A DNA stretch of 64,000 nucleotides from Pyrobaculum islandicum DSM 4184 (GTDB taxonomy: Archaea > Thermoproteota > Thermoprotei > Thermoproteales > Thermoproteaceae). A model generated the notes under the pieces. It was not told where the DNA came from, did not search any database, and saw only the letters and a list, made by a program, of their open reading frames with translations. The DNA is taken from positions 1,491,436 to 1,555,435 of the forward strand of contig NC_008701.1 of assembly GCF_000015205.1 (NCBI RefSeq), written 5' to 3'. The position numbers and the translations under genes were made by a program. Shown piece after piece: positions 22,442 to 23,838 of this stretch. Each line of letters opens with the position of its first letter. Position 1 is the first letter of the stretch.

Positions 22442-23404
22442 CTATACGGCTTGTTTTAAAAGTCTTCTTATTTTTGCAAGAGCTCCAAATATCTGTGTAA
22501 GTCCACGAGCCCCCCTCAATGTGGCATAGTGAGCTTCTGCGATGATATACGCAAGCTCTGGCTTTACATACTCCGGGACATCTAGTCTCAAAACTTCTCG
22601 ATGTATCTGTCTAATGATTTCTAATTCGCCGACGCCGCCGTCGACAACAAATCCATAGATCTGTGTCATAGCCTTACTAAAATTCCCCTTCAACGCCTCT
22701 TGCAAAGTTTCTCTTAACAACCTAGGCGATACCATGCCGAGCGCTCTAGCCACAACATCCTCTGTAATCTCCTTCTCTGTTGCCGCGGCTATCTGAAGCG
22801 CATTTATAGCCTTTCTCATATCTCCTTGTGTAAATTCATATATTGTTTCCAGGGCGTCGTCAGAGATTTTAACACCCTCGTTCTCTGCGATATATCTAAG
22901 CCTAGAAATAACAGCTTCTTTGGGAAGGGGATTAAATCTGATCATGACTACCCTCGATTGTATAGGCTCGATAATTCCACTTATGTAGTTTGCCAGTAGT
23001 ATGAATCTTGTGTTTTGTGCGTATATTTCCATTATTCTTCTTAGTGCTTGTTGTGCGTCGCTTGTCATGTTGTCTGCTTCGTCTAGTATGACTAGTTTGA
23101 AGGGGGCTTTGCCTACTGGGGCTGTGCGGGCGAATTCCTTTACTCTCTCCCGGATTACGTTTATACCTCTCTCATCTGAGGCGTTGAGCTCTAGCGTATT
23201 CTCACGCCAATACTCGCCGTAGAGCTCTCTCGCCAAGACAAGAGCCATGGTAGTCTTCCCAGTGCCAGGAGGGCCGTAGAAGAGGAGATGCGGCATATTA
23301 CCACTCTTCACAAACTCCCTAAGCCGGCTCTTAACCTCCTCCAAATCAACCACCTCATCAAACGAACGAGGACGATACTTCTCAAACCAAAACAACTCGC
23401 TCAT
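22442..23404 (-). CDS. rfcS: Replication factor C small subunit
   Basis: 320 residues. Loads the PCNA clamp as part of the RFC pentamer. Walker A is GPPGTGKTT (44-52), Walker B LDEADN (107-112), and the arginine finger lies in QSRVVM (SRC-like). The start ATG overlaps the upstream gene stop by 4 nt. Codon use is bizarre. Of codons 2-39, 36 of 38 end in G or T; of codons 90-141, 49 of 52 end in A or C. The rest is mixed. The protein itself shows no defect or intein. Confidence 0.95.
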
Positions 23405-23838
23405 ATGTAGAATTCCTCTGCGAGCTCGGTTTTTATGTATTGGCCACTTTTTAACAATACATAACCCAAGCGGTTAAGTATCTGGAGAAGTTCATAGTCA
23501 CGTTCGTTAAGCTTTTCGGCGTCTTTAACAGACATGGGGAGTCTGTCTAAGAGCTTTCTAGCAGCCTCCTTTAAAACTACCACCTCTCTATTTGCGCCTT
23601 CGTCATGAAGTACGAGCACAAGACCTCTTTCCATAGCTTGTCTCAAAGCTTGTCTAGACTTGACTTCTGAGAGAGGAATAAACTTTCTCTCTCTCAAGAC
23701 TTCTATAAACGACTTGGTCTCGCCCTCTGGCTTCGGCTTGCCTCTCTTTATCTCTCGCAATTCTTCAAGAACTGTGTTAAGCAAGATCTCTAGCTCGTCG
23801 AGTCTTTCAAGAATTCTCCTGAATTCTTCACAACTCAT
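23401..23838 (-). CDS. Hypothetical protein co-transcribed with rfcS
   Basis: 145 residues, soluble and charged. The N-terminus is a coiled coil ([30 protein letters not shown]). The rest is helical with a winged-helix-like end ([37 protein letters not shown]). The 4 nt overlap (ATGA) with rfcS suggests a replication-linked role, but the family is not recognised. ATG start with little space to the GTPase gene stop (24 nt). Confidence 0.6.

Follow-up and report, generated by a model that had tools for sequence, protein, structure and literature searches.

A keto-to-amino codon gradient marks a gene conversion island shared by two replication factor C small-subunit genes in Pyrobaculum islandicum

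The N-terminal ~140 codons of rfcS, which encodes the replication factor C small subunit of Pyrobaculum islandicum, undergo concerted evolution by gene conversion with a second gene, rfcS2, and this exchange is confined to one domain, a conclusion that we regard as near-certain. Inside this and other such identity islands, synonymous sites are sorted by strand, with coding-strand keto bases (G or T) at the 5' end and amino bases (A or C) at the 3' end. We propose, with a probability of about 0.68, that the opposed codon blocks of rfcS are the equilibrium footprint of recurrent ectopic rfcS1/rfcS2 conversion sorted by NucS/EndoMS, the likely sorting agent.

Opposed codon blocks within a segment shared by rfcS and rfcS2

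We analyzed a 64,000-nucleotide stretch of the P. islandicum DSM 4184 chromosome (NC_008701.1, positions 1,491,436 to 1,555,435; the window). The features discussed below all lie on its minus strand:

22442..23404, minus strand: rfcS (= rfcS1), replication factor C small subunit, 320 aa (ORF; Pfam AAA, RFC lid and Rep_fac_C domains)
22985..23399, minus strand: 415-bp island evolving in concert with rfcS2, to which it is 100% identical (blastn 415/415; codon comparison; trees)
23288..23401, minus strand: keto block (third base G or T), codons 2-39, 5' end of the island (codon count)
22982..23137, minus strand: amino block (third base A or C), codons 90-141, 3' end of the island (codon count)
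23252..23275, minus strand: Walker A motif (codons 44-51, GPPGTGKT), located in the island's central, unbiased part (translation)
22442..22981, minus strand: C-terminal part of rfcS, diverged from rfcS2 and free of keto and amino blocks (codon comparison, trees)
23401..23838, minus strand: ORF upstream of rfcS with a 4-bp overlap, outside the island and lacking a Pfam match

Recounting confirmed the codon pattern described in the original prediction. Third bases are G or T in 36/38 of codons 2-39, where both exceptions are AGC, and A or C in 49/52 of codons 90-141, where the exceptions are ATG113, ATG125 and CTG137. Codon inspection likewise bore out the claim that the preceding ORF (23401-23838) ends in mostly A/C-ending codons. 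From the first to the last third of the island in the source genome (G000), G/(G+C) falls from 0.71 to 0.06 and T/(T+A) from 1.00 to 0.00, and in a synonymous permutation the gradient over codons 3-140 reached z = -7.6 (p = 0.0002, the lowest value that 5000 shuffles allow).

Two familiar sources of compositional bias were rejected. GC-biased gene conversion does not fit because G and C are not both favored, as the fall in G/(G+C) makes plain, and a replication- or transcription-strand skew does not fit because the keto/amino sign is not uniform, flipping within 420 bp and disappearing at the island edge.

The second gene, rfcS2, lies 0.9 Mb from rfcS (G000:C1:597599-598543), beside an rfcL-like gene. 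Over codons 3-140 the two copies are identical at 415/415 bp by blastn, and past codon 141 they show ordinary paralogue divergence and are only distantly related. The boundary of the amino block as first reported, 22982, coincides with the end of this identity (22985). The earlier suggestion of recombination is therefore upheld by DNA identity with a paralogue over codons 3-140.

N-terminal identity followed by divergence was found in the rfcS pair of every Pyrobaculum and Thermoproteus-like genome examined, and synonymous island sites differ between species at 22-43% of same-residue sites in pairwise comparisons. In a tree of the island (codons 33-139), a genome's own two copies are sisters in 12/13 genomes. 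In a tree of the C-terminal part (codons 145-310) same-genome copies are sisters in 0/13, and the split by paralogue has a support of 1.0, which places the duplication before speciation. The marks of concerted evolution are thus all present: copies closer within a genome at synonymous sites, a duplication that predates speciation, and recurrence in independent lineages. Contigs of several draft genomes break off within the island segment, as an exact repeat is expected to make them do.

Polarity follows the identity islands across Thermoproteales

Identity islands of the rfcS pair are present across Thermoproteales (families f1 and f2) at positions specific to each lineage, for example codons 3-140, 6-214, 44-81, 161-206 and 181-209. 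The order's other large family has islands at 6-214 (G019), at 44-77 and 161-206 (G024), and at 44-81 and 181-209 (G029). In 31/35 islands the coding strand runs from keto to amino, the first half being more keto than the second. Long islands gave within-gene synonymous class permutation p-values at or near the floor, and in other genera they contain additional switches and not one smooth gradient. Short islands of 30-60 codons are polar as well, such as G029 181-209, with keto fractions by quarter of.86,.43, 0 and 0. The original prediction had centered the flip on the Walker A region; instead, the blocks track these lineage-specific islands, and in the P. islandicum island Walker A falls in the unbiased middle.

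A keto-to-amino gradient is unchanged by reverse complementation and therefore belongs to the tract as double-stranded DNA, the kind of trace expected from a recombination intermediate. The class of a site is often kept through species differences of the G<->T or A<->C kind (0.53 and 0.43 in the two blocks, against 0.27 outside). Moreover, first positions of leucine codons sort in the same way, with TTR at 36/125 in first halves and 9/90 in second halves, which points to DNA and not to third-position decoding. The claim that selection on the protein sequence does not explain the flip was upheld.

One possibility raised at the outset, that all orthologues share the pattern, holds in part: the pattern is present only in orthologues with a recombining paralogue, and single-copy orthologues are flat. 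In 19 outgroup genomes from other orders of the class, single-copy rfcS has mean keto quarters of.56,.52,.50 and.47 (mean z -0.22), and NucS was found in 17/19 of these genomes. Absence of a recombining partner thus goes with absence of polarity even where NucS is present. The unexplained exception is G021, a single-contig, Vulcanisaeta-like genome whose rfcS carries keto and amino blocks. Searches of it found one rfcS only and nothing resembling rfcL; part of its sequence may be missing.

Other paralogues gave limited comparisons. Escherichia coli tufA and gadA/gadB, from an organism with MutS, show no gradient, and strong codon selection makes them a weak control. The thermosome paralogues of the source genome (proteins ~56% identical) have no identity island and hence offer no test there. 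Elsewhere, thermosome paralogues have small islands in some genera only: the pair in G020 (L090/L116) has one at codons 233-260 that runs from keto to amino, and those in G019, G022 and G028 show keto enrichment alone.

An independent locus in the genome sample

For comparison within the source genome we used 464 kb of its 1.83-Mb chromosome (400 kb of stretches plus the window), comprising 500 non-overlapping ORFs scored against a synonymous null. No other ORF in this sample has so extreme an amino block as rfcS (40-codon z = -5.77) or so strong a co-occurrence of the two block types. The original prediction had allowed that many genes might be similarly skewed; similar tracts do occur in a few others, and rfcS is the extreme among the 500. 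A general property of the genome was rejected on the same evidence.

Third for co-occurring blocks, and ranked before any repeat search, was a cytochrome-b561-like gene (Pfam PF01292; G000:C1:1813419-1814126), which also has the steepest gradient of 457 sampled ORFs (z = -5.84). A DNA search after the ranking found a 98.7%-identical copy at G000:C1:152360-153064. This membrane subunit gene is common to two different oxidoreductase operons, and its repeat is as follows:

G000:C1:1813307-1814125 and 152358-153181 (L191:4307-5125 and L190:9358-10181): cytochrome-b561-like 824-bp island, 98.7% identical

By alignment, the island spans the end of the upstream ferredoxin-type gene to the stop codon of the cytochrome-b561-like gene, and the last codons of the ferredoxin-type gene, which lie inside it, are keto-rich. 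Both species that carry the gene twice show polarity, the second being G009 (824-bp island; z -2.4 and -2.7), and the four single-copy species are flat (G002, G004, G006 and G010; z +0.6, -0.1, 0.0 and -0.5).

A proposed model of NucS-directed conversion

Excerpts of PMC7736090 report that crenarchaeal (Sulfolobus) EndoMS with Mg cuts G/T, G/G and T/T and not A/A, C/C, A/C, T/C or A/G, and excerpts of PMC5290159 report that NucS inhibits homeologous recombination in Mycobacterium smegmatis. PMC5290159 also describes MutS-MutL as absent from crenarchaea. Keto versus amino, an uncommon way to class bases, is the exact split of class-differing heteroduplexes, with G-T, G-G and T-T on one side and A-C, A-A and C-C on the other. 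The published specificity therefore predicts keto/amino sorting, in the observed direction, during break-repair conversion; we assume by analogy with Sulfolobus EndoMS that the Pyrobaculum enzyme would share it.

In the proposed model, a break inside an island would be repaired from the paralogue by synthesis-dependent repair, and the newly copied donor strand would pair with whichever recipient strand had been resected: to the left of the break the coding strand, to its right the template strand. At a class-differing site with a keto base on the resected strand, the mismatch would be G-T, G-G or T-T, NucS would cut it, and the donor allele would be locally rejected. With an amino base on the resected strand, the mismatch would be A-C, A-A or C-C, escape NucS and let conversion proceed. 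Keto bases would thereby accumulate on the resected strand, giving coding-strand G/T at the left of the island and A/C at its right, and only synonymous sites would be free to display the sorting.

Simulation of this site-wise rule gave keto quarters of.86,.62,.38 and.14, compared with the observed.97,.61,.18 and.03, and a flat profile when the rule was removed. A variant that abandons the entire tract at a single mismatch was rejected: the simulated copies diverge and concerted evolution collapses. The model therefore needs rejection to be local.

Distribution of NucS and polarity

We searched for NucS with a Pfam model (41 genomes) and with the full protein (all 45 genomes of the order). In the source genome its N and C domains lie at G000:C1:1575612-1576322, and a search of that genome for the MutS_V domain gave no match. 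NucS was not found in G016 (complete), G005 (Thermoproteaceae MAG Bin S10, 93%), G022, G013 (80%) and G017 (73%). G022 and G017 lack an rfcS island that could be scored and stand outside the comparison of polarity with NucS.

Among Thermoproteaceae whose island could be scored, polarity is present in each NucS-bearing genome (12/12), and the nonpolar islands belong to the two in which NucS was not found and blocks are missing, G016 and G005. In these, the rfcS pair is perfectly homogenized and the islands have no gradient. Among A/T-ending codons, the GC3-rich, NucS-bearing G014 and G018 are polar (T,A counts of 9,2 to 1,8 and of 4,1 to 0,8; p =.003 and.007), and G005 and G016 are not (4,3 to 3,6 and 1,3 to 3,6; p =.33 and.82). 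G013, an 80%-complete MAG, has strong blocks though NucS was not found in it, and would be an exception if it truly lacks the gene; its sister G011 has NucS. Loss of polarity with loss of NucS is thus suggestive, the two clear NucS-minus genomes being both GC3-rich, so that power is low and GC is confounded with NucS.

Pairs of ~500-aa MutS_V-type ATPase frames occur at G008:C1:1884947-1886787 and G025:C30:17577-19411, in genomes otherwise lacking MutS.

Alternative explanations

Two alternatives accept the same conversion and differ in what sorts the bases. Single-stranded 3' tails exposed at recurrent breaks in hot habitats might be sorted by deamination (C to U, A to hypoxanthine), which predicts the same keto-to-amino direction and draws on the established idea of strand-coordinated damage at breaks. 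Cytosine deaminates far faster than adenine; on the keto side, A-to-G is at least as saturated as C-to-T, with G at 78/81 two-fold R sites and T at 72/95 two-fold Y sites in island first thirds and 1 A among 175 four-fold sites, which speaks against deamination. The signal also stops where the island ends, although resection would carry it on into the flanks, and the two genomes without NucS lose it while conversion goes on. Known strand-coordinated mutation clusters at double-strand breaks share the opposite strand signature on either side of the break, but here A-to-G is as strong as C-to-T and the signal does not extend beyond the homologous island. We consider deamination unlikely, and give a comparably low rating to another biased repair of the heteroduplex, by a T/G glycosylase or by polymerase proofreading of the invading 3' end. 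In principle, any discrimination between G-T and A-C would yield strand-wise keto/amino sorting; however, a T/G glycosylase favors C whichever strand is resected, which is a GC bias and not a keto-to-amino switch, and neither activity accounts for the association with NucS.

Selection tied to fixed positions in the gene, on its mRNA or its codons, acting through structure, translation speed or an overlapping or antisense element, would suit the start of the keto block at the start codon in Pyrobaculum. It is very improbable given that the blocks move with the islands from lineage to lineage, that single-copy orthologues are flat, that the keto end of the cytochrome-b island falls in the upstream gene, and that leucine first positions sort in the same sense. 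Past loss of an intein, a homing element or import of foreign DNA around Walker A, the first two raised in the original prediction, draws on probable inteins near the rfcS Walker A in three genomes of other orders: in G045:C46, G047:C1 and G054:C27, rfcS matches start near residue 65-73 in frames of 536-693 aa, which suggests inteins there. In the P. islandicum rfcS, however, we found neither an insertion nor a scar; the RfcS protein is uninterrupted and conserved, with Pfam matches only to AAA/RFC-type ATPase domains. The feature instead tracks paralogue identity islands homogenized within each species, Walker A lies in the unbiased middle of the one in this gene, and this origin is scarcely credible. 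NucS-directed conversion, which we prefer, has observations weighing against it too, namely G013, G021, the extra switches in long islands of other genera, the polar sampled genes with no second copy and the weak average keto-to-amino trend described below.

Relation to known systems and significance

As in other duplicated prokaryotic genes under concerted evolution (PMC6053082, PMC4632066), paralogues within a genome are more alike than orthologues over the long term; in rfcS, by contrast, conversion is limited to one gene domain, and keto/amino polarity does not appear in the excerpts of those texts. The main text of PMC6053082 does not contain the string 'rfc'. Chia et al. 2010 (PMC2880001) treated the same gene family, with its two RFCS types, and inferred multiple independent RFCS duplications in crenarchaeotes, with no mention of gene conversion or recombination. 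The N-terminal half of the rfcS pair would mislead a tree: vertical signal on the duplication is missing from half of each crenarchaeal RFC small-subunit gene, and the published inferences of independent duplication may therefore need revisiting.

The model shares with GC-biased gene conversion the biased resolution of heteroduplex mismatches that drives synonymous composition, but the bias here separates keto from amino bases, is strand-dependent and changes sign over a ~400-bp tract. With NucS/EndoMS repair and the barrier to homeologous recombination, as excerpted from PMC5290159, PMC7736090 and PMC8228993, it shares the substrate classes, keto-keto mismatches being cut and amino-amino ones spared; here, however, the action is read from an evolutionary footprint, and those excerpts do not mention a directional effect on conversion. 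Our search of the open-licence literature turned up no earlier description of rfcS conversion or of conversion tracts with keto/amino polarity, and direction-dependent NucS editing of conversion appears to be undescribed.

More generally, we see a slightly better than even chance that NucS/EndoMS surveillance makes conversion strand-directional, such that long-lived tracts in NucS-reliant organisms should evolve a keto-to-amino gradient. The NucS repair system is common to archaea and actinobacteria. If the model is right, biased gene conversion would gain a new form, acting by keto/amino class and strand and not by GC, and the gradients would be a natural in vivo record of NucS action on recombination intermediates. 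Readable from sequence, such gradients would map ectopic recombination islands and NucS activity, and would offer a way to detect such islands, and the loss of NucS, in genomes.

Other polar genes in the sample

Along the 500 sampled ORFs (window and L051-L070) there is a weak mean keto-to-amino trend, with a difference between first and second halves of 0.016 +/- 0.004; slope z is below -3 in 12 ORFs and above +3 in 2. The third-position class is also slightly autocorrelated at a 5-codon lag. Strong keto tracts or keto-to-amino slopes occur at L066:18528-19643, L068:2125-2916, L065:18804-19949 and L051:1869-2660, for which the genome holds no second DNA copy; such genes may once have been conversion partners, may have converted with imported DNA, or may have been acquired recently. 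The sole sampled gene with a strong amino-to-keto slope, L051:17273-18145 (z = +4.5), encodes a Thr/Pro repeat followed by a transmembrane segment.
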